A stretch of 64,000 bases of DNA from Microbacteriaceae bacterium MWH-Ta3. GTDB lineage: Bacteria; Actinomycetota; Actinomycetes; Actinomycetales; Microbacteriaceae. This document shows, one piece after another, positions 6,502 to 58,909 of the stretch. Where the stretch lies: positions 620,001 to 684,000 of the forward strand of contig QBKD01000001.1 of assembly GCA_003053925.1 (NCBI GenBank). Reading direction: 5' to 3'. The position numbers were made by a program, and so were the translations under genes. The notes under the pieces were generated by a model that saw nothing but the letters and a program-made list of their open reading frames with translations, was not told the origin of the DNA and made no database searches. Within the stretch, counting starts at the first letter, position 1, and each line of letters opens with the position of its first letter.

Positions 6502-7269
6502 TCAGCGTGCAGCGGCGGTGTTCGCCGCGCTGATGAGTTCCACCATTGACGGATTGGCCCGAACCTCGCCGTCGGCGCACAACACCAGGACCGCGCAGGC
6601 GTCTGCCCCATTCGTGGCTAAATCCACCACATCGAGGCCACCACTCACGATCGCCGTCGCCCATACGTCACTGGCCACAATGTCGTTTGACACCACCGTG
6701 GCCTGAACCACCTGTGGTCCCGTTGCCGTCGAACGCCAGATGTGTTCCCCCCGCTCCGACGTTCCGCTGGTGGCAATCGCCGACCAGTCGCCACCCAGCG
6801 CCACCACGGCGGCAAGGCTGCCCGAGTCCGTGGGCGACGTGATGCCCGTGGTCCACGCCCCCGGTTCTCCGCGAGTGGCCATGTCCCCACCCGCATTGAC
6901 GGAATATGATTCCACGCCGTGGGCGCGCAGAACTGCACAAGCGGCCGCAATAGCGTCGGCCTTCACAATGCCTGATAGATCGATTATCCCGTCGGGCCGA
7001 TGCGGGGTGAATGCGCCGTGTGTGCGTTGCCGCCATTCGATGGCCCGGGCATAGGTGTCGCGGATGTCGTGGGACAGATCCGTCAGTGCGACATCGCCGG
7101 CCGCCAATCGCGACAGGGGCGATTCGGGCTTGTACAGCGAGTACTCCGTGTCGTACAACTGGAAGACGCGTTCGATGCCCTCGAGGGCCTCGTTGTGGTG
7201 TTCGTCAACTCCCCCCAGAACACGCACCGAAACCGTCGTGCCCATGGTGTCGAAGATGTGTACGGTCAT
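6502..7269 (-). CDS. apbE: FAD:protein FMN transferase ApbE
   Basis: The 255-residue protein matches ApbE: MGTTVSVRV near the N-terminus, GIVKADAIAAACAVLRAHG, SVNAGGDMATRG (the nucleotide/Mg2+-binding GGD region) and a C-terminal SNDIVASDVWATA segment. ApbE moves FMN from FAD onto Thr/Ser of extracytoplasmic FMN-binding domains. Its start overlaps the stop of the FMN-binding-domain gene by 4 bp, so this neighbour is the expected substrate. At 255 residues it is shorter than many ApbE proteins and shows no N-terminal signal; the site of action is not clear from sequence. Confidence 0.9.
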   Translation of the reverse strand: MTVHIFDTMGTTVSVRVLGGVDEHHNEALEGIERVFQLYDTEYSLYKPESPLSRLAAGDVALTDLSHDIRDTYARAIEWRQRTHGAFTPHRPDGIIDLSGIVKADAIAAACAVLRAHGVESYSVNAGGDMATRGEPGAWTTGITSPTDSGSLAAVVALGGDWSAIATSGTSERGEHIWRSTATGPQVVQATVVSNDIVASDVWATAIVSGGLDVVDLATNGADACAVLVLCADGEVRANPSMVELISAANTAAAR

Positions 7270-7805
7270 CCCGTGAAGCCTGCCGCATCAAGAGCGGACT
7301 GCACCGAGTTCTTGTATGCCTCGGAACTGTACGTTGCGCGACTGACGTTCGTGACCGACGCCGACTGAGCTTCCAGCACCTCGGCCAACAAAATGGGAAC
7401 CGCACGCTGGTTGATCTCGACGCTCTTGCCGTCATTCGCCGGGTACTGCAGCGTCTCGACGGCGGTGATGGCGCCGCCGGAAATGACAACCTGTACCTGC
7501 ATCGGCCCCCATCGAGTCTGATAGGTATCACCAACGTATGTGCCTTCGATGGCGTTTGACGTTGTGGAGGTCGTCGTTTCCGAGGCGGACGCCGAGCTCG
7601 ACGATGCCGAACTGTCGGAGGCACTGACATCGGCGTTCGACGTATCCGCCGTAGTGTTCGTCGAATCCGCGGTGTCGGTCGATTCGGCCGCGGTAGTGAC
7701 CGTTGCCTGGGCATCGGCGGTAAGTGCCGCCTGTCCAACGTTCCAACCGATGGCAACGATCGCAGCCGTGGCTGCTCCGGTCACAAATGCAGAGGGTGTT
7801 CTCAT
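7266..7805 (-). CDS. Secreted FMN-binding domain protein, ApbE substrate
   Basis: The 179-residue protein has an N-terminal signal or anchor helix (AFVTGAATAAIVAIGWNVGQAAL), a Ser/Thr/Asp/Ala-rich linker (about 30-85) and a C-terminal FMN-binding domain starting near GTYVGDTYQTRWGPMQVQV. The flavinylation motif is SRATYSSEAY, with Thr158 as the likely acceptor (family pattern S/T-x-A-T). It sits between the ferric-reductase-like gene and apbE, the classic arrangement for extracytoplasmic flavin electron transfer. Electrons probably pass from the membrane flavoprotein to this FMN and then to an outside acceptor; the acceptor is not shown. Confidence 0.9.
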   Translation of the reverse strand: MRTPSAFVTGAATAAIVAIGWNVGQAALTADAQATVTTAAESTDTADSTNTTADTSNADVSASDSSASSSSASASETTTSTTSNAIEGTYVGDTYQTRWGPMQVQVVISGGAITAVETLQYPANDGKSVEINQRAVPILLAEVLEAQSASVTNVSRATYSSEAYKNSVQSALDAAGFTG

Positions 7806-7814
7806 GGGTTTCTC

Positions 7815-9221
7815 CTACCAGGCAAATTCTTCGTAGTGCACGGCGTGTGCGGGAACTTTGTGGGCGGCCAGATCGGTTCGTACGTGTTCCATACAGTCGG
7901 TGGGACCACAGATGTAATAGTCGCAGTCGCGCGGACGGGACACATAGTGGGTGATGTTCTCGCCATTCGCCCACTCCTCGTGGGGCAACCACGATGCCGT
8001 GTTGGGGCGCCGGCCACTGAGCGTCACGAGGCGCGCGCCGGTGGACTTCGCCAGTGCACGGATTTCGTCCAACAGATAGGGTTCGGAATCGCTTGCTCGC
8101 AGAATAACGGTGATGTCGCCGCGGTGGGCGGGCAGGTCCTCTAACAGAGCACGGATGGGCGCCGCACCGATGCCAGCCGCGATCAACACCACCTTGGGCG
8201 AGGTGCGGACGGCGCTGGTGAACACACCATAAGGACCTTCCGCCCACACGCGGGTTCCGACTCGGATCTTTTGATTTCGTGTGCTGTTGTCCCCCAGGGC
8301 ACGCACGGTCAAGCGGATGAAGTCGCCGTTGGGCGCGGCCGACACCGAAAACGGGTGGGCCTCCCACATGAGCGCGGGCGTGAGGAAGCGCCATTGTCCA
8401 AAAGATCCGGCGGGGAAACGCCACGAACGCAGGTTTCGGCCGGACAGATACACCGACACCACACCGGGTGCGATGGTGTCCACTCGCTGCACCACCAAAC
8501 GGTGACGCAGGTTTTTCACCAGCGGAACGCCGAATCGGAAGATCACGACGCTGCCGATACTGACAACGAAGAGCGCAGCCCAATACACACGGGCTGCCGT
8601 GCCCTCGGCGAACAGGCCGCTCCACGAAAACTGGTGCGGGATCGACAGCACCATGACGGCGTAGCTGGTGAGGTGAATCGCGTGCCAGACCGCGTAGGGG
8701 AGAGCCTTGCGTGCCACGACGATGCTCGAGATGACCACGACAATCATCCCGATGAAGGACAGGAAAGCCTTCAGCATGTCCTCGTCGGCATTCCAGAAAT
8801 CGAGGGTCTGCTGCACGACCGACACATTCGACACCAGTGCGTTCCCCAGGACGAGTCCCACGAAGTGCGCGACGATGAGGTACAGCGTGGGTTTACCCAG
8901 GGTGTTGTGCAGTGCGATGGCGCGATCGTGACCCACGATGCGCTCGATAGCGGGGACTCTGGCCGCAAGAACAAACATGATGAGGAAGAGGTTCGTACCC
9001 ACCAGCCCGGCCATGATTCCGATTCCGATCACCGCGTCCGGGACTGTCCCGAAATACGATGCTCCGCCGTCGGCAAAGAAGAGCGCAATGACAAGTGCCG
9101 ACGTGATGGGGATCAACGATTCCCAGGCGTCTTTCGCCGTGTATCGATGGTTGCGGCGGGTGGCCAAGGCGGCCGCACTAGGAACGGCACGTCGATGACG
9201 CGGGAAGGTTACGGGGTTCAC
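7815..9221 (-). CDS. Ferric-reductase-like transmembrane flavoprotein with FNR module
   Basis: A 468-residue protein. About six membrane helices lie in residues 35-245, with conserved His residues for haem (ALHNTLGKPTLYLIVAHF, VWHAIHLTSYAVMVLSIPHQF). Residues 255-468 form a ferredoxin-NADP reductase module: an FAD-binding segment near FPAGSFGQWRFL and WEAHPFSVSAAP, an NAD(P) segment VVLIAAGIGAAPIRALLEDL and the terminal YYICGPTDCMEHVR. It lacks the C-terminal 2Fe-2S domain found in the paralogue at 51754. The GTG start is followed 10 bp past its stop by the FMN-binding protein. It likely carries electrons from NAD(P)H across the membrane. A long inverted repeat lies upstream. Confidence 0.88.
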   Translation of the reverse strand: MNPVTFPRHRRAVPSAAALATRRNHRYTAKDAWESLIPITSALVIALFFADGGASYFGTVPDAVIGIGIMAGLVGTNLFLIMFVLAARVPAIERIVGHDRAIALHNTLGKPTLYLIVAHFVGLVLGNALVSNVSVVQQTLDFWNADEDMLKAFLSFIGMIVVVISSIVVARKALPYAVWHAIHLTSYAVMVLSIPHQFSWSGLFAEGTAARVYWAALFVVSIGSVVIFRFGVPLVKNLRHRLVVQRVDTIAPGVVSVYLSGRNLRSWRFPAGSFGQWRFLTPALMWEAHPFSVSAAPNGDFIRLTVRALGDNSTRNQKIRVGTRVWAEGPYGVFTSAVRTSPKVVLIAAGIGAAPIRALLEDLPAHRGDITVILRASDSEPYLLDEIRALAKSTGARLVTLSGRRPNTASWLPHEEWANGENITHYVSRPRDCDYYICGPTDCMEHVRTDLAAHKVPAHAVHYEEFAW

Positions 9222-51753: not shown

Positions 51754-53352
51754 TTAGGCGTCGATCACCAACTCCTTCGTCGTGGCACGCGAAACACAGG
51801 GATAAAACACGCCCATCTCGTTCTTCGTTGCATCGGGAAGTACGCTGTCGAGGTGCGCCGCTGTTCCCGAAATAACGCGCGTCTCGCACGAACCACACAC
51901 GCCCTTTTTGCACGACGCATCGATATCGATTCCTGCCTTTGTCAATCCCGAAAGAATAGTCTCCGAGGCTCCCACTTCGACAACCTTGTGGCTACGTGCA
52001 CATGTGACGCGGACGGGCTGTGCGCCGCCGGCCAGTTCACGGACGACCGGGTTGAACCGCTCGATATGCGCCCGAGGCGCCCCCACCCGATTTTCGACCT
52101 CGGACATCAGTTCTTCCGTGCCACAGCAATACACTTCGCCGGGTTCAGCCGCGAGCGCCGCCGCCAAATCAAATCGGCCTGCAATCGACGATTCGTGTAC
52201 CTGAACCTTGTCACCAAAGGTGGCCTCGAGTTCACTGGCGAACGCCATGGTTTCGCGTGACTTACCCAGGTAGACCAACGACCACACGCGGTGCGCGGGA
52301 AGCGACTCGATCATTGCACGAATGGGAGTGATTCCAATTCCGCCGGCAATAAACAGGTAGCGGTGTGCCGGGACCAGCGGGAAGTGGTTGCGCGGACCGC
52401 TCACGGTCAGAATCATGCCGGGATGCACGTGGTCGTGAATCCAGGTGCTTCCACCCTCGGGACCACGGGTATTCAAGACCGCAATCTCGTATGCGCCGTG
52501 ATCGGCAGGGTCGCCGCACAGCGAATACTGTCGTTCCAGTCCGGTTGGCAGGTGCAGGGTGATGTGCGAACCCGCGTCCCACCACGCCACACGACCGCCA
52601 CCCACGGGGACCAGGCGAATGCGCGCGATGTCCCGCGCGGGGTGCGTGATGGACTCCACCACCATTGATCGAGGCTCGCGGCTATCCGGGTCCGATGGAA
52701 CGAGCGCCGTTGCCGCACCATTAGTGATGGACTGCTCGGCACCACGTGCTCCGGCGGCTGCACGCATTGCCGCCACCTCGGCGTCTTTCTCGGCCTTGCG
52801 GGCCACCATCGCGATTGCGGCAAAGCGCAGAACCATGGCAATGATGGACATGGTGATCACGAAAATCGAGACGGCGCCGTACCACCACGAACCCACATCG
52901 GAACCGGCAAAGGCAGCGTGCCAGGCGATGGCAAAAAACACGCCGTAGCTCAGAAAGTGCAGGCCCTTCCATACGCGCCGTGGCAGCTTGTCCATTACCA
53001 ACGACGTCAGATACACAACTGCCAACGCCCAGAATGCAACGACGCCAATCGCGATGGCTGTTTCCTGAACGTCGGTCGAGCCCTCGTATGCGGCGACACC
53101 CGGAATGAAAAGGTCGGCCAGGTCGAACGCCACATAGTGATCGAGCATTAATGCTCCCATGTGCAGGCCGGCGAACAAGACCGTCAAGGTGCTGAGGTAC
53201 TTGTGCAGATCCTTGAGCCACGCGGGGTTATCCAGGCCGCGGAATACGCGGCTGGCCAGCAACACGCCCCACACGATGGAGAACGACATGATCGCCCACG
53301 CCACCATCGCGCTGACACGCGACACAAACCACCACAGTTGCGGATCGTTCAT
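51754..53352 (-). CDS. Ferric-reductase-like membrane flavoprotein with FNR and C-terminal 2Fe-2S domain
   Basis: A 532-residue fusion. About six membrane helices (residues 10-190) with haem-type His (LHKYLSTLTVLFAGLHMGALMLDHY, GLHFLSYGVFFAIAWHAAF). An FNR module follows: LERQYSLCGDPADHG, FIAGGIGITPIRAMIE and VYCCGTEELM. The end is a plant-type ferredoxin with CKKGVCGSCETRV and a fourth Cys in YPCVSRA. It moves electrons from NAD(P)H through flavin, 2Fe-2S and haem. Its start overlaps apbE2 by 4 bp; last gene of the redox operon. Confidence 0.92.
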   Translation of the reverse strand: MNDPQLWWFVSRVSAMVAWAIMSFSIVWGVLLASRVFRGLDNPAWLKDLHKYLSTLTVLFAGLHMGALMLDHYVAFDLADLFIPGVAAYEGSTDVQETAIAIGVVAFWALAVVYLTSLVMDKLPRRVWKGLHFLSYGVFFAIAWHAAFAGSDVGSWWYGAVSIFVITMSIIAMVLRFAAIAMVARKAEKDAEVAAMRAAAGARGAEQSITNGAATALVPSDPDSREPRSMVVESITHPARDIARIRLVPVGGGRVAWWDAGSHITLHLPTGLERQYSLCGDPADHGAYEIAVLNTRGPEGGSTWIHDHVHPGMILTVSGPRNHFPLVPAHRYLFIAGGIGITPIRAMIESLPAHRVWSLVYLGKSRETMAFASELEATFGDKVQVHESSIAGRFDLAAALAAEPGEVYCCGTEELMSEVENRVGAPRAHIERFNPVVRELAGGAQPVRVTCARSHKVVEVGASETILSGLTKAGIDIDASCKKGVCGSCETRVISGTAAHLDSVLPDATKNEMGVFYPCVSRATTKELVIDA

Positions 53353-54341
53353 TCGTAATCACTCCAATTATCTGATTCTGTGCACAGACCTGTGCTGTCG
53401 ATAACAATCCCCGCGGCGCCAACGGTGGGCAACCATTCCAAATAGTCATCAACCGGCCACACAAACCCGGGCTTGGTCAGGACTTCGGCCCGTGTCGCGG
53501 TGGCGGCAATAACACTGACCGTCACAATGTCGGTCTCGAGAGACCGTCCCGACTGCGAATCCATCAGGTGATGACGGATTTCACCATCCTGTGTCCAGGT
53601 TTTCTTCAGCCGGCTCGATGTGGCAACAGCACCGTCCACCAAGTTCACAATTTTGATGTGTTCGCTGGGCACGAACGGGTTCTCGATTCCAATGCGCCAC
53701 TGATGCCCATTGGGTGATTCCCCCGCAATGCGCAGATCACCGCCCAGTTCCACGAGTGCTCCCAGGGCACCAGCGTCGAGGGCGGCAGCAACCAAGAGGT
53801 CTGCAGCGTAACCCTTCCCGATTCCACCGGGATCAATGGTTGTGCCTCGAGGCAGTGTCACCGTGTTACCCGACACAATCGCGCCGTCAATATTGCCCGG
53901 CCAACGTGCCGACTCGGGCAAAGTTGTTGTTCGACTGGGGTCCGTACGTGATGCGGCATACCCAGCCCGAACCAGCGTAGGCAGGATGGTCGGGTCGTAG
54001 ACCCCGCGAGTAACCGCATGGGCAGCACGCATTCCCTGAACAAGTACGGCGGTGTCAGGTGACACCTCGACAGGTTCTCCCTCGGCCCAATTCACACGAG
54101 AAACTTCGCTGTCCGAACGAAACCGGCTCCAGCGTTGTTCCATGGCGTGCGCCTCGGCGACAAGTTCGGCCATCATGTCGGACGAACCGCCCACGAGTGT
54201 GATCGATGCCGTCGTTCCCATCACTCCAAAAGTGTGGGAATGGGTGGGTGCCGTCGAGTCGCCCAGTGCAGCGACCAACGCACGCGCGACGATGTCGTGA
54301 TTCGGCTGCCCGGGACTAGTTCGATCCGCTGCTGGTTCCAT
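53349..54341 (-). CDS. apbE: FAD:protein FMN transferase ApbE (second)
   Basis: A 330-residue protein with FGVMGTTASITLVGG, DPGGIGKGYAADLLVAAAL, ALVELGGDLRIAGE and HHLMDSQSGRSLETDIVTVSVIAATATRAEVLTK, the ApbE pattern. ATG 54341 is chosen because upstream residues come from a shifted reading of the Ser/Lys-rich neighbour. Its first 26 bp overlap that neighbour. No FMN-binding domain protein is encoded in this operon, so its substrate is unclear; the one at 7266 or a partner elsewhere is possible. Confidence 0.92.
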   Translation of the reverse strand: MEPAADRTSPGQPNHDIVARALVAALGDSTAPTHSHTFGVMGTTASITLVGGSSDMMAELVAEAHAMEQRWSRFRSDSEVSRVNWAEGEPVEVSPDTAVLVQGMRAAHAVTRGVYDPTILPTLVRAGYAASRTDPSRTTTLPESARWPGNIDGAIVSGNTVTLPRGTTIDPGGIGKGYAADLLVAAALDAGALGALVELGGDLRIAGESPNGHQWRIGIENPFVPSEHIKIVNLVDGAVATSSRLKKTWTQDGEIRHHLMDSQSGRSLETDIVTVSVIAATATRAEVLTKPGFVWPVDDYLEWLPTVGAAGIVIDSTGLCTESDNWSDYE

Positions 54342-54753
54342 TAGTGGGGGTCGTTGGTGTGCTGGGGGTATTGGTCGAACCTGATGACGAGTTACCGGAC
54401 GATGCTGGCTTGGAGCTTCCCGAGTTCGACGAGGCGGCGGACGATCCGGACGAGTTCGAGGATCCCGAAGAACCCGACCATGCCGACGTGGTCTTCTTCG
54501 CCGCGGCAGCCTTCTTTGCGGCAGCTGCCTTCTTCGCAGCGGCAGCGTCGGCAGCGATTTGCTTGGATTGCGTGACCGCCTGTGCAGCAGCCTGCGCCGT
54601 TGCCGCCGCTTGGGCGACTGCTTCTGCCGTTGCCTTTTCCATGCGAGCGGCCTGGGCCTGAACTTCGAGACCACCCACACCGGCAAACAGCACTCCAACA
54701 GTCGCCGCGGTTGCAGCAATGCGGGATTTCAGCGCAATGGGCTTATCGAACAT
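54316..54753 (-). CDS. Secreted low-complexity protein with Ala/Lys-rich helix and Ser-rich tail
   Basis: A 145-residue protein. A signal or anchor (SRIAATAATVGVLFAGVGGLEVQAQA) is followed by an Ala/Gln helix and the basic repeat KKAAAAKKAAAAKK (about residues 74-87), then about 55 residues of Ser, Gly, Asn, Thr and Pro. No domain is recognised. Its ATG shares one base with the stop of the acidic-tail gene, so the two are translated together. The basic helix could pair with the acidic tail of that partner (inference). Confidence 0.75.
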   Translation of the reverse strand: MFDKPIALKSRIAATAATVGVLFAGVGGLEVQAQAARMEKATAEAVAQAAATAQAAAQAVTQSKQIAADAAAAKKAAAAKKAAAAKKTTSAWSGSSGSSNSSGSSAASSNSGSSKPASSGNSSSGSTNTPSTPTTPTNGTSSGSN

Positions 54754-55205
54754 TAGTCGTCGTCCTCGTCGTCTTCGTCATCATCATCGTCGTCGTCTTC
54801 ATCTTCATCTTCGTCTTCGTCTTCGTCGTCTTCGTCTTCGCCCGATGCCGAACCCGAACCGCCCGATGTGGCATCGGTTGTGCCCGTAGAAGATGTACCA
54901 GTTGAAGCGGCAGGCTTACTCGCGGTAGTGCCCGATGATGCCGAGCCCGAGCCGTCGGTTGCTGCCTGTGCGGAAGCATCTGAGTCCGACGAAGCGGTGG
55001 GGGTAGGTGCTGCATCCGCTGCCGTTGAGTCGGGCGATGCGGTGGGATCCAGAACATCCGTCTCAGCCGATGCCACCGTGGTACCGGCCAACAAGTCAGA
55101 CGTTGTGCTGAGGTCGATGGCACCACTATTGATTGCCATTGCGCCGACACCCAGGCCTGCCGAAGCGGCGATACCTGCGACTGCTAAAGGAAGTTGAATG
55201 CTCAT
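54753..55205 (-). CDS. Secreted protein with a 28-residue Asp/Glu tail
   Basis: A 150-residue protein. An N-terminal hydrophobic segment (LPLAVAGIAASAGLGVGAMAI) suggests export. A Ser/Thr/Ala/Gly-rich middle (residues 35-120) is followed by 28 consecutive Asp/Glu residues up to the stop, coded by 54756-54839 as a GAN codon run. No known domain. ATG 55205 is chosen over longer frames because it gives the export signal. First gene of the redox operon, divergent from the two-component system. The tail could bind metal ions or a basic partner (inference). Confidence 0.75.
   Translation of the reverse strand: MSIQLPLAVAGIAASAGLGVGAMAINSGAIDLSTTSDLLAGTTVASAETDVLDPTASPDSTAADAAPTPTASSDSDASAQAATDGSGSASSGTTASKPAASTGTSSTGTTDATSGGSGSASGEDEDDEDEDEDEDEDDDDDDDEDDEDDD
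54756..54839. repeat. 84-bp GAN trinucleotide run coding for Asp/Glu
   Basis: All 28 codons are GAC, GAT, GAA or GAG. The tract is low-complexity and could vary in length by slippage. Confidence 0.85.
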
Positions 55206-55221
55206 GACTTCACTGTAAGTA

Positions 55222-55244
55222 GGGGCGGGCCGCCCCGCGAGGGG
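55222..55244. promoter_or_regulatory. Overlapping, mutually exclusive hairpins in the divergent intergenic region
   Basis: GGGGCGG-G-CCGCCCC (55222-55236) shares its CCCC with CCCC-GCGA-GGGG (55233-55244), which is followed by TTTTAT on the plus strand. On the minus strand both fall in the leader of the acidic-tail gene. Confidence 0.45.
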
Positions 55245-55325
55245 TTTTATCAAAGAAACATCCAAGGTTGCCCGTTGCGCCCGAAATTCGTCCAAGAAAT
55301 GTCAAAAACGTGGCACTCTCGTTCT

Positions 55326-55994
55326 ATGAGCATTCTCTTGGTGGAAGACGATCGCGCAATTGCCGACGGCATTGTGGACGGTCTTCGCGAGAACGGTTAT
55401 TCCGTGACTCACGTGGTCATGGGGTCCGAGGCAATCCTGAAGGTTCGCAACGGCGGAATCACCACCGTGATTCTCGACCTCGGATTACCCGACATGGACG
55501 GCACCGAGGTCTGCCGACAAATTCGCGCGTTCTCGCACGTGCCTATCATTGTGGCCAGCGCCCGGGAAACCGAGATGGACCGAGTCGATGTCCTAGAACT
55601 CGGCGCCGATGACTATCTGGTGAAACCGTTTGGAATTCGGGAACTCGTCGCACGTATACATGCCGTTATACGGCGAGCCACAGGTACAGGTACGCCAATC
55701 ACACTGTTGACGGTGGGTTCGTTGGTTATTGACACAAAGGAACGTAGTGTGCACGTGGGCGGCGACTCTGTCGTTCTTACTCCCAAGGAATTCGACCTGT
55801 TGACGTACCTCGCGCGTGAGCCCGGCACGGTCTTTCGCCGCAGTGACATCCTGCGCGACGTCTGGCAGACCACCTGGTACGGAACCACCAAGACGCTGGA
55901 TGCCCATGTGGCCAGTATTCGCAAGAAGCTCGGCAACCCGGCATGGATTGAATCGGCGCGCGGGGTGGGCTTTGTTCTGAAAGATCAGTCGTGA
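55326..55994 (+). CDS. Two-component response regulator, OmpR/PhoB family
   Basis: A 222-residue regulator. Receiver domain with DD at 8-9, Asp51 phosphoacceptor (LDLGLPDMDG), Ser/Thr switch (VASARE) and Lys (LVKPFGIRELVARIHAVIRR). The C-terminal winged helix (about 130-222) includes LTPKEFDLLTYLAREPGTVFRRSDILRDVW and LDAHVASIRKKLG. ATG 55326 starts the receiver exactly. Overlaps the kinase gene by 4 bp. It probably controls itself and perhaps the divergent redox operon. Confidence 0.95.
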   Translation: MSILLVEDDRAIADGIVDGLRENGYSVTHVVMGSEAILKVRNGGITTVILDLGLPDMDGTEVCRQIRAFSHVPIIVASARETEMDRVDVLELGADDYLVKPFGIRELVARIHAVIRRATGTGTPITLLTVGSLVIDTKERSVHVGGDSVVLTPKEFDLLTYLAREPGTVFRRSDILRDVWQTTWYGTTKTLDAHVASIRKKLGNPAWIESARGVGFVLKDQS

Positions 55995-57385
55995 GAAAAC
56001 TGTTTCTTGCCTCGATGCTGGGTGTGAGCGCCACGGTTGTGGGCGCATATGGCGCCAGCACCTTCAGCTACATTCAGCAAACAGAACAGCAGCGCATTCT
56101 CACGGAATTCGAGCGCGACGGCTTTGTTATCGCCGGCCGCGTCGAAGAAGGCCTCGAAGATAACGCGCTTAACGACGCGCTCACCGCGCTCGTTACAAAC
56201 TATGCGACAAGCAACAACACTCGCGTGGTGGTTATTGACCAGTCCGGGAAATCGGTAATCACCAGTCACCCCGAGGAGTTGGCGCTCGGAGAAGATTTCA
56301 CGAACAGACCGGAAATTGCCGCAGCGCTCACGGGCAATGTGGCTACGGGCGAACGCTGGAGCGACACCCTGCAAGACCAACTGGTGTATGTCGCTGTTCC
56401 CGTGATCAGCGGAAGCACAATCTACGGCGCCGTGCGCTTGTCGTTCTCGCACGATGAAATCGACGCCGCCGTCGCCGCGGGAACTCTCTTCCTGTGGTGG
56501 ATTGCCGCCGGTTCGATCGCGCTGTCGGTAATTCTTTCGTGGTACATCTCGGGTCGCGTCATTCGCCCCCTGAAATTAATCGAGGCGCAAGCCGAGATCA
56601 TGGGTGCGGGCGACTTCACGGGCCGACTGGTTGAAAACAAGGGCGCGAAGGAAATTCGCACACTCGTTCATGCGTTCAATGGCATGGCCGAAAAGGTCGA
56701 ATCGCTCATGCGTCAGCAGCGCACATTTGCCTCCGATGCCTCGCACCAACTTCGCACCCCACTTACGGCATTGCTTCTGCGCCTGGAGCGCGCCCGCGAG
56801 CTGGTGCGCACCAACCCCGTGGGAGCCGAAGAACGACTGGGTGCAGCCGAAGAAGAAATCCAACGGTTGAATTCCATCGTCGAAGGCCTTCTTGTCATTG
56901 CCCGCGCCGACGGTGGCCGAGTCGAAACGGGACTAGTGGAACTGTCGATTCTGGCCCGCGATCGCATCGAAGGATGGGAACCTCTCTGCGAAGAGAAGGG
57001 TGTGAAGATCACACTGGAAACCCCCGGCGCGATGGTCTGTTCCGCCATTCTGACGGCACCCGAACAGGTTTTAGATAACTACATCGACAACGCGCTGTCA
57101 CACGCGCCCGCCAATTCCACGGTCACCGTACGACTGTCGACCGATGGCGACAAGGTGGTTGCCGAAGTGTTGGATGAGGGCCCCGGCTTGTCGCCCGAGG
57201 ATTGCGAACGAGCATTCGACCGATTCTGGCGCGCAGACTCGACCCGAGAAGGCAACGGCTTGGGCCTCGCCATCGTGAAGCACTTGGTGGAATCCAGCGG
57301 CGGATCCGTGTCGCTGTCGCCGCGCCTCGATGATGCCGGCGCCACACGCGGGCTTATCGCAAGGGCTACTTTCCCCCGCGGCTGA
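55991..57385 (+). CDS. Sensor histidine kinase
   Basis: A 464-residue membrane kinase. Helix 1 (about 5-25), an extracytoplasmic sensor (about 28-160, with VVVIDQSGKSVITSHPEELALG and VYVAVPVISGSTIYGAVRLSF, a Cache/dCACHE-like pattern), helix 2 (about 163-186), HAMP (about 187-240), HisKA with FASDASHQLRTPL (His252) and an ATPase domain with NYIDNAL, DEGPGL and GNGLGLAIVKHLVE. It phosphorylates the regulator encoded just upstream. The signal is unknown. The last 20 bp overlap the minus-strand gene. Confidence 0.95.
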   Translation: MRKLFLASMLGVSATVVGAYGASTFSYIQQTEQQRILTEFERDGFVIAGRVEEGLEDNALNDALTALVTNYATSNNTRVVVIDQSGKSVITSHPEELALGEDFTNRPEIAAALTGNVATGERWSDTLQDQLVYVAVPVISGSTIYGAVRLSFSHDEIDAAVAAGTLFLWWIAAGSIALSVILSWYISGRVIRPLKLIEAQAEIMGAGDFTGRLVENKGAKEIRTLVHAFNGMAEKVESLMRQQRTFASDASHQLRTPLTALLLRLERARELVRTNPVGAEERLGAAEEEIQRLNSIVEGLLVIARADGGRVETGLVELSILARDRIEGWEPLCEEKGVKITLETPGAMVCSAILTAPEQVLDNYIDNALSHAPANSTVTVRLSTDGDKVVAEVLDEGPGLSPEDCERAFDRFWRADSTREGNGLGLAIVKHLVESSGGSVSLSPRLDDAGATRGLIARATFPRG

Positions 57386-57800
57386 TGTCGCGAGAAACCG
57401 TGCCGCACAGCGATTCGGATTCAGACGTCGTGGGGAATCGAATCACCAGCGGGCTCGAGCCCAGCGTGTTGTCACATTCCAGACGCACACTATCGGGGGT
57501 AAACATTTGGGACGAGTTTTCGACCTGTTCGCCCCAGAAGTTGTGACACGTCTGTAACGACGACACAAAAATTTGGGCCGTGGCGAAATCAGCTGCGTCA
57601 ATGCCTCCCGCCTCGTCAATCGTCACGCACGCCACGTGGGGCATGATCGTCGAATACAGCGGCGGACTTCCCACGCCTACTGCAGCGGATACTGCAATAG
57701 CAGCCCACACACGCGCTTTCTGTCTGCGCGCAATTTTGCGCTGAATACCCGACCACTGGATTTCGTTACTCGCAGGCGTATTGCTACTCGACTGATTCAT
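57366..57800 (-). CDS. Hypothetical single-pass membrane protein, third gene of the sigma operon
   Basis: A 144-residue protein with a cytoplasmic start (about 33 residues, IQRKIARRQKAR), one membrane helix (VWAAIAVSAAVGVGSPPLY) and an outside domain with four Cys (HVACVTIDEAGG, QTCHNFWGE, RLECDN, ESLCGTV). GAGGAC precedes the ATG, which overlaps the sigma stop by 17 bp. The topology is what an anti-sigma factor would have, but there is no zinc-binding anti-sigma motif. Function is inferred only from position. Confidence 0.7.
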   Translation of the reverse strand: MNQSSSNTPASNEIQWSGIQRKIARRQKARVWAAIAVSAAVGVGSPPLYSTIMPHVACVTIDEAGGIDAADFATAQIFVSSLQTCHNFWGEQVENSSQMFTPDSVRLECDNTLGSSPLVIRFPTTSESESLCGTVSRDISRGGK

Positions 57801-58338
57801 TGTTGTCCTCCCAACGACTACGCAGGCGGATTCGTGCGCGTTCAAGAGTTTTGCGAATCATCGATTGTGACATACCCAAGATTCGCGCCGCGTCGGAATA
57901 TCGATAGCCCGACACCACACAGAGCTGAATCACGTTTTGTTGCAGTTCGGTCAAATGCGCGATCTCGTTCTGAAGATACACAAGATCGCTGAAGTCATCT
58001 GAACGATTGCGTCTCTGACTAAACACTGTCATATCGCCTGTTGAATCAGTTCGACGACGTTTCAACTTTCGTAGGCGGTTTCGCACCATGTTTATCGTTG
58101 TCACCACTAACCACGGGGCCAGTGATTGGTCAACGGCGGCTATCACTCGGCGCTTTTCCCACAGAATCACAAAGACGTCTTGGACGATGTCATCCAATTC
58201 CGACGATTGTGCCCCGTGCGCCCGCGCAATGTTATTCACCATTGACGCATAGGTATCAAATACTGCGCGAAATGCCGCATGGTCGCCATTATGAAACCTC
58301 CCAAGGAGTTCCTGCGGGAGTTCAGATGCGGCGGTCAT
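57784..58338 (-). CDS. ECF-type RNA polymerase sigma factor
   Basis: A 184-residue factor. Region 2 includes FRAVFDTYASMVNNIARAHGAQSSELDDIVQDVFVILWEKR, and region 4 includes LTELQQNVIQLCVVSGYRYSDAARILGMSQSMIRKTLERARIRLRSRW (the HTH for -35 binding). TATCGT 6 nt before ATG 58338 gives this start and a leaderless promoter of its own. It sits between a lipoprotein gene and a membrane-protein gene. By eye this block is lower in GC than its surroundings. Subgroup and targets are unknown. Confidence 0.9.
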   Translation of the reverse strand: MTAASELPQELLGRFHNGDHAAFRAVFDTYASMVNNIARAHGAQSSELDDIVQDVFVILWEKRRVIAAVDQSLAPWLVVTTINMVRNRLRKLKRRRTDSTGDMTVFSQRRNRSDDFSDLVYLQNEIAHLTELQQNVIQLCVVSGYRYSDAARILGMSQSMIRKTLERARIRLRSRWEDNNESVE

Positions 58339-58344
58339 GGTTTC

Positions 58345-58350
58345 ACGATA
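58345..58350 (-). promoter_or_regulatory. -10 hexamer TATCGT for the sigma gene, leaderless
   Basis: TATCGT is 6 nt before ATG 58338 on the minus strand, the same hexamer and spacing as at 61011. Confidence 0.5.
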
Positions 58351-58360
58351 ACAACCCACG

Positions 58361-58909
58361 TCACTGTGTAACGGGAACAGGTTCGAAGCCAATCCGGTGT
58401 GCGTGGTCGTTAAAATTTCCCGCGATGGTGTCCACTGACGTCATCGAGGTCATCATGCCGTGTGCATCGATGACAACAATGGGACCAGCAGCGGACGCCC
58501 AACTTCCATCATCAATTTGTTGTGGTTCATTTGCTCGAATCAGCACGCGATCACCCACGACCAATTGTGAAGGGTCGGCTTGTCCCTCAAAATTCACGAT
58601 GATGAAGGTCGTGTAGGAGGAAGCTTCGATGCGGGGTAGGGCCTGTTCGATTCCCACCGTAACCGGCACAATGCTCAGCCAGGCATCGCCTCCAACCGCA
58701 ATAGGCATCCCCACCTTTTCAACTATCCCCACAACCGAGAAGTCCCACTTAAACCCAAAGAGCGTGTCAGTGTCGCGTGGTCCCCAAAACGCACCCCAGC
58801 TTCCGATCTGTGCTGTGCCGAGGTTCGTTGTCGACGGAGTTGTCGTACATCCGGTCAAAAGGCTCAATGTCAGAATTGCGCTCCCGAGACTTGCGAAATG
58901 TGTATTCAA
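58361..58909 (-). CDS. Lipoprotein of unknown function upstream of the sigma gene
   Basis: A 182-residue protein with a lipobox (LTLSLLTGC) and a mature part rich in strands (WDFSVVGIVEKVGMPIAVGGDAWLSIVPVTVGI, TFIIVNFEGQADPSQLVVGDRVLIR). No known domain is recognised; the pattern with QLVVGDRVLI resembles small OB/SH3-like beta barrels. TTG 58909 is preferred: AAGGGA lies just upstream, whereas the GTG at 58924 would overlap the AGGAGG. It is divergent from the amylase gene. Confidence 0.65.
   Translation of the reverse strand: MNTHFASLGSAILTLSLLTGCTTTPSTTNLGTAQIGSWGAFWGPRDTDTLFGFKWDFSVVGIVEKVGMPIAVGGDAWLSIVPVTVGIEQALPRIEASSYTTFIIVNFEGQADPSQLVVGDRVLIRANEPQQIDDGSWASAAGPIVVIDAHGMMTSMTSVDTIAGNFNDHAHRIGFEPVPVTQ

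Follow-up and report, generated by a model that had tools for sequence, protein, structure and literature searches.

The stretch of DNA analyzed here, hereafter the window, comprises 64,000 nucleotides from Microbacteriaceae bacterium MWH-Ta3 (assembly GCA_003053925.1, contig QBKD01000001.1, positions 620,001 to 684,000 of the forward strand; coordinates below are positions in the window), and we focus on a gene cassette at 51,754-57,385 that contains ApbE2, a protein of the FAD:protein FMN transferase family. The sequence-only reading of this locus had described four overlapping minus-strand genes with a regulator and a kinase diverging from them, an arrangement that held when coordinates and reading frames were checked. 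The minus-strand operon encodes an acidic protein of 150 amino acids (54753..55205), a basic protein of 145 amino acids that we call the tag protein (54316..54753), ApbE2 (53349..54341), and FNR2, which combines ferric-reductase-like, FNR and 2Fe-2S parts (51754..53352). Their reading frames overlap: the acidic and tag protein genes share one base within TAATG, the tag protein and ApbE2 genes share 26 nt, and the ApbE2 and FNR2 genes meet at ATGA. Across a divergent intergenic region (55206..55325), the plus strand encodes a response regulator with a Trans_reg_C output domain of the OmpR type (55326..55994) and a histidine kinase with HAMP, HisKA and HATPase domains (55991..57385), all assigned by Pfam.

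Both small proteins begin with a hydrophobic segment that is a predicted signal or anchor. The tag protein continues with a low-complexity body that contains KKAAAAKKAAAAKK plus a Ser-rich tail and ends in the motif NGTSSGS (residues 138-144; 54322..54342, minus strand), whose last residue, Ser144 (codon 54322-54324), is the predicted flavin acceptor, as suggested by its position and conservation. The acidic protein has a body rich in Ser, Thr, Ala and Gly, a second predicted acceptor motif, DATSGGS (residues 111-117; 54855..54875, minus strand; Ser117 codon 54855-54857), and a terminal run of 28 consecutive Asp/Glu codons (residues 123-150; 54756..54839, minus strand), which is possibly a cation-binding tail. 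Pfam found nothing above cut-off in either protein, and NCBIfam gave neither a name above cut-off. They are not members of the FMN_bind family (PF04205), and the earlier observation that the ApbE2 operon encodes no FMN-binding domain was borne out by Pfam, including a check of the small proteins for a hidden domain.

By sequence, ApbE2 is a member of the ApbE family (PF02424, 182.6 bits against a cut-off of 25.6) and belongs to a subfamily with Glu in place of the catalytic Asp. Its AlphaFold model (pLDDT 91.6) resembles solved ApbE structures, with 1vrm as the best PDB match (E 2.6e-23). The catalytic triad of ApbE enzymes is Asp-Ser-His (PMC12052999); at the corresponding positions of ApbE2, S242 and H258 are invariant, and Glu286, equally invariant, replaces the Asp in the 19 aligned sequences. 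FNR2 matches Ferric_reduct (PF01794) at 32.1 bits (cut-off 28) and Fer2 at 40.4 bits (cut-off 21), while its FAD and NAD domains score under their Pfam cut-offs. The flavin/NAD half is similar to phthalate dioxygenase reductase, with 2pia among the PDB sequence matches (E 1.5e-42). Four His residues in the membrane domain (H50, H64, H132, H145) and four Cys residues in the C-terminal 2Fe-2S domain (C481, C486, C489, C519) are invariant in 12 orthologues and are the putative heme and cluster ligands. In the kinase, a Cache-like sensor region scores just under the Pfam cut-offs, and the best NCBIfam match is a heavy-metal sensor kinase subfamily, below cut-off (188.8 vs 292.55 bits).

The protein encoded upstream of ApbE ends in a short conserved tag. 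The pattern [S/T]-x-[G/A]-[S/T] lies no more than four residues from the C-terminus in 58 of 68 distinct upstream proteins, compared with 4.1 +/- 1.9 (maximum 10) in 1000 composition shuffles of the last 40 residues, and the acceptor position is Ser in all 58, although the pattern, which was written after the Microbacteriaceae rows had been viewed, permitted Thr. These proteins derive from 82 loci, namely the best 80 of 423 relatives in a scan of named genomes (L066-L145), the window and a differently built relative, L053; 12 loci gave no upstream open reading frame (ORF), and removal of two duplicates reduced 70 proteins to 68. Six of the 12 begin near the ApbE gene (L073, L075, L085, L103, L116, L125). 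On reading, L069, L078, L093 and L129 show a tag but stand outside the counts, L132 shows none, and no ORF was read in L101. When only Ser was allowed as the acceptor, the pattern was found in 26 of 54 loci sampled across the phylum (shuffles 2.5 +/- 1.5, maximum 7); the last 60 residues of these loci are distinct from those of the first set, though some relatedness between the two sets is possible. Their ORFs were picked by a composition score that favors low complexity, so composition-preserving shuffles were used for comparison, and three loci (L212, L229, L235) had no ORF in range. The Ser pattern was absent from control C-termini: 0 of 70 response regulators, 0 of 73 kinases, 0 of 72 FNR2 proteins, 0 of 79 ApbE2 proteins, and 0/13, 0/12 and 0/13 for three flanking genes.

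Typical ends are NGTSSGSN (window), HGSSSGSK, NGTSGGSGG, DATTGGSGG, VDAVTAGS, KTSGSR and RTNGSR. The tag core thus resembles an ApbE acceptor with Gly usually in place of Ala. Canonical [S/T]GA[S/T] versions also occur, as in NTGAS (L053), KASTGASGG (L106) and ASSGAS (L211); 2 of the 68 proteins have the exact form among their last 15 residues, and L211 is an example from the phylum set. In an alignment of 85 upstream proteins, only Met1 and the terminal Ser (84 Ser, one Thr) reach 90% conservation. The set was a selected one, with the tag present in 83 proteins, so the alignment tells us that no other position is conserved but nothing about how frequent the tag is; 93 had been prepared, eight untagged ones were omitted (L097, L105, L107, L108, L123, L138, L140, L145), and 28 untagged phylum proteins were aligned separately. 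The bodies are rich in Lys, Ala and Ser in the window's genus and mostly in Ala and Pro elsewhere, and Pfam at E 0.01 found no family, and no FMN_bind, in the 85 proteins. All six Ser codons are used for the terminal Ser (TCN 53 and AGY 31, of 84), which indicates that selection acts on the protein and not on a translation signal of ApbE. A ribosome-binding-site origin of the tag was ruled out by this mixture of TCN and AGY codons and by the varying distance from the stop codon to ApbE.

The internal motif of the acidic protein recurs on one of the two sides into which the loci fall. Among loci of the window's side, 30 of 42 have an acid-tailed ORF with the motif in its last 110 residues (shuffles 1.3, maximum 5), and one locus has as many as seven copies in a single acidic orthologue; L053 was placed in neither group of this count. 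On the Acidimicrobiia side, the acidic proteins of 11 loci (L118, L119, L121, L124, L128, L129, L131, L133, L135, L137, L139) contain an extra conserved beta domain, for which no Pfam family scored above cut-off in the five scanned. Its model is confident only at residues about 60-140, and the best match, lmo2686 (4k15, Z 8.1), indicates no function; FMN_bind-like folds are absent among the matches listed, which excludes nothing.

The cassette recurs well beyond the window. This ApbE is present in 14 of 15 genomes of the window's genus, and the order acidic protein, basic protein, ApbE and FNR with a divergent regulator and kinase recurs there where contigs allow. At the family level its distribution is patchy, with strong matches (E < 1e-65) in 26 of 199 genomes; in the 22 strong loci outside the genus (L031-L052), the divergent regulator is always present and the FNR gene is found in 18, with one more cut by a contig end. 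The best 80 loci of the named-genome scan fall into 52 of the window's side (L066-L117), including Cryobacterium, Agromyces, Salinibacterium, Alpinimonas and Galbitalea, and a second group of 28 (L118-L145), 17 of which carry the names of groups that we take to belong to the class Acidimicrobiia, such as Desertimonas flava. A divergent regulator accompanies 66 of these 80 loci, and 71 have an FNR2 homologue downstream of ApbE; an acid-tailed ORF is present in 57, and 58 show the tag. All four features coincide in 46, and contig ends truncate several of the loci. The gene order is shared by Acidimicrobiia and some of the Microbacteriaceae, and its recurrence in the genus, the family and the named genomes marks the locus as more than chance. 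The worry that the small genes might be unconserved in relatives can be set aside, and spurious or unconserved small ORFs were ruled out by their kept position, N-terminus and C-terminal tag. An alignment profile of this ApbE matched 67 of 396 genomes across the phylum at E 1e-40. When ApbE2 alone served as the query against 396 genomes at the level of the order, with five candidates scored per genome, the window genome was the sole match at E 1e-35; in light of the profile result, this outcome has to be put down not only to distribution but also to sampling and sensitivity.

Several relatives are built differently. Three loci (L097, L105 and L107, one of them from Aurantimicrobium) have neither an FNR gene nor a separate tag gene; upstream of ApbE2 they have one acidic gene, with TTGGS motifs inside it. 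L053 encodes an acidic protein, a tag protein ending in NTNTGAS, an ApbE with A-E-T-L-T-K and a short ferric-reductase-like protein. The 28 untagged phylum proteins upstream of ApbE include Fer4 proteins in three cases and Ppx/GppA in two. In one family of the phylum (L214, L217, L227), the gene upstream of a related ApbE encodes a 4Fe-4S ferredoxin-type protein and not a tag protein. In L188, L192 and L193, ApbE relatives are preceded by 97-residue proteins ending in DLDRDGS[LV]TVVDSPPDTTTAPS, another kind of upstream partner.

The window also contains an ordinary flavinylation operon (6502-9221, minus strand), which serves as an internal control: ApbE1 (6502-7269) adjoins an FMN_bind protein (7266-7805; site VTNVSRATYSS), and the operon also encodes a ferric reductase. 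Across the 1.56 Mb of the window genome, in 2 contigs, three stretches matched ApbE, corresponding to two genes, and the FMN_bind domain of this operon was the only one. Of 21 chosen genomes with the cassette, seven have no FMN_bind match. In two of these genomes, G010 and G013 (94% complete), the cassette ApbE is the only ApbE and no FMN_bind match was found. Another ApbE adjoins the FMN_bind gene in 15 of the 19 FMN_bind matches in cassette genomes. The sites of these proteins read SGAT, GGAT, GRAT or SRAT, and SGGT in two; the FMN_bind protein of L249 has no readable site. DUF2271, a possible alternative substrate, was found in 0 of 8 genomes; DUF3570, Flavodoxin_4 and FMN_red were not searched. 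Two loci (L062 and L064, genomes G087 and G200) show a further ApbE type with an A-D-G-[LV]-A-T site and no FMN_bind match in the genome.

Taken together, it is probable that the short tags on these low-complexity, presumably disordered and membrane-tethered proteins are the flavin acceptors of ApbE2, and that the locus is an electron-export cassette. The sequence-only reading had stated that ApbE needs an FMN-binding domain; this does not agree with the report that ApbE recognizes the seven-residue motif D-x-x-[S/T]-G-A-[S/T], which is sufficient without such a domain (PMC12052999). According to the same passages, replacement of the Asp has a minor effect, Thr is preferred over Ser, and an engineered flavin-tag works best at protein termini (PMC12052999). 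The same reading had also allowed that ApbE might act on a site not recognized by eye, and NGTSSGS and DATSGGS would fit such a site. In the proposed mechanism, ApbE2 would move FMN from FAD onto the Ser of the upstream protein's C-terminal tag, [S/T]-x-[G/A]-S; many Microbacteriaceae would have additional loading sites in the acidic protein, where one or more motif copies precede the acid tail. The FNR2 fusion would carry electrons from cytosolic NAD(P)H over the membrane to the tethered flavins, through its flavin and 2Fe-2S cluster and then two b hemes held by the four invariant His, so that the tag FMN would pass them to an acceptor outside. The tethered flavins may act as mobile arms that hand electrons to this external acceptor, possibly a metal ion on the Asp/Glu/His tail, and the divergent two-component system would control the cassette.

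Several observations weigh against this interpretation. The residue before the acceptor is Gly rather than Ala in 53 of the 58 tagged proteins, and Asp stands at position -6 in only nine; the SGGT sites of the two FMN_bind proteins provide a precedent for Gly at this position. In every FMN_bind protein with a readable site, namely 17 of the 18 fetched plus that of the window, the acceptor is Thr, whereas Ser takes this place in the tags. ApbE2 itself has Glu in place of the catalytic Asp. The pattern is missing from 10 of the 68 upstream proteins (L096, L097, L105, L107, L108, L120, L123, L138, L140, L145), four of which (L097, L105, L107, L108) are single acidic genes with an internal motif that were scored as misses, and from 28 of the 54 phylum loci. 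The internal motif was found in 0 of 16 loci of the L118-L144 group (last 110 residues of acid-tailed ORFs). Other low-complexity ORFs match the pattern in 7 of 66 cases, in line with a chance rate of about one in ten for Ser/Ala-rich sequences, and related loci were counted singly, uncorrected for kinship. Furthermore, ApbE2 has no evident signal peptide, as judged by hydropathy only, while its predicted substrates look exported. The same mismatch is seen in the ordinary ApbE1/FMN_bind pair of the window, where ApbE1 likewise has no evident signal peptide by hydropathy only. For both enzymes this would imply that flavin is attached before export, which is the weakest step of the proposal.

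A conserved C-terminal peptide could instead serve the docking or assembly of structural partners, with ApbE2 modifying another protein, either the FMN_bind protein encoded with ApbE1 or some further one. Such an arrangement would accommodate the cassettes without a recognizable tag and the difference between Thr acceptors in FMN_bind proteins and Ser in the tags, the window genome does have one FMN_bind protein, and flavinylation of the tags is itself a prediction. We nevertheless regard it as unlikely, since that FMN_bind protein has its own adjacent ApbE, the two genomes G010 and G013 have only the cassette ApbE and no FMN_bind match, with the reservation that both are 94% complete, and a conserved peptide similar to an ApbE acceptor adjoins ApbE in both Microbacteriaceae and Acidimicrobiia. 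The invariant Glu286 could alternatively be the mark of a flavin-trafficking enzyme that hydrolyzes FAD to give free FMN, an activity reported for a Treponema relative, Ftp (PMC4767422). However, the triad Ser and His are kept, and the conserved C-terminal Ser of the neighboring protein would be left unexplained, which makes this role very unlikely for ApbE2.

The sequence-only reading had proposed that the exported proteins, complementary in charge, associate with each other or with metal or iron as parts of an extracellular relay. Both charges are indeed extreme in the window's genus, and 57 of the best 80 loci have an acid-tailed ORF, so that a cation-binding role is conceivable. The net charge of the last 80 residues of the upstream protein averages +9.1 in the genus (n=10, 6 to 13) but -0.3 in other loci (n=60, -19 to 20), or +0.4 (n=56, -10 to 20) without the four single-acidic-gene loci. 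The partner is thus not basic outside the genus, yet its terminal Ser is kept, and a relay of this kind appears highly improbable. Charge complementarity was rejected as a conserved principle, since only the window's genus shows the basic charge, and the earlier idea of acidic-basic binding as the principle found no support. Least probable of all is that the terminal Ser is kept for processing or for another modification, such as O-mannosylation of exported proteins rich in Ser, Thr and Pro. The bodies are rich in Ala, Pro, Ser and Thr, a composition typical of glycosylated secreted proteins, but they vary freely, and glycosylation is not known to require a fixed C-terminal [S/T]-x-[G/A]-S.

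The cassette stands closest to several known systems, as the cited passages describe them. MsrQ-like flavinylation clusters, which are broadly conserved in Actinobacteria, also place apbE beside a membrane protein of the Ferric_reduct family (PF01794), which often has an NAD-binding domain (PMC8238504). These clusters typically, though not obligatorily, hold a gene for an FMN-binding domain, whereas the window cassette has two tagged low-complexity proteins instead, along with an additional 2Fe-2S domain and a divergent two-component system. DUF2271 and DUF3570 (PMC8238504) and Flavodoxin_4 and FMN_red (PMC11334425) are associated with ApbE and carry [S/T]GA[S/T]-like sites outside an FMN_bind domain, those of FMN_red being predicted on an unstructured C-terminal extension (PMC11334425). 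Such substrates hold a named domain, while the window proteins consist only of a signal or anchor, a low-complexity body and a tag. The engineered flavin-tag (PMC12052999) is likewise a short peptide that accepts flavin at the end of a protein, but it follows D-x-x-[S/T]-G-A-[S/T], whereas the window-type tag would be its natural counterpart and is mostly [S/T]-x-G-S. Several predicted flavin sites on one exported protein, as in some orthologues here, are also found in multi-flavinylated proteins (PMC8238504, PMC11334425); according to these sources, the latter are mostly strings of folded FMN_bind domains, unlike the proposed domain-free carriers of the cassette. We found no description of the cassette or of domain-free tags in the open-licence literature, with preprints outside the scope of the search and a description elsewhere possible. 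After the addition of DUF2271 and DUF3570, Meheust et al. (2021) reported that about 4% of the genomes they surveyed (670) had apbE without a known substrate, and that less prevalent ApbE substrates remained unidentified (PMC8238504). Should the tags prove to be flavinylated, covalent attachment of flavin to a carrier can do without a folded flavin-binding domain, the laboratory flavin-tag has a natural counterpart, and Actinomycetota ApbE enzymes without an FMN_bind partner gain a substrate.

A bolder version of this proposal, which we consider doubtful, would make the two small proteins a disordered multi-flavin conduit. Flexible anchored polymers, with as many as seven copies of the motif in one acidic orthologue and the C-terminal tag on its partner, would be loaded with FMN in the cytoplasm and exported, and would then pass electrons over the cell wall to metal on the acid tail by means of carriers that have no folded flavin domain.

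Beside the cassette, on the strand opposite the kinase gene, positions 57366-58392 (minus strand) contain a gene for an ECF-type sigma factor and, overlapping it, a small gene whose product may be the corresponding anti-sigma factor.

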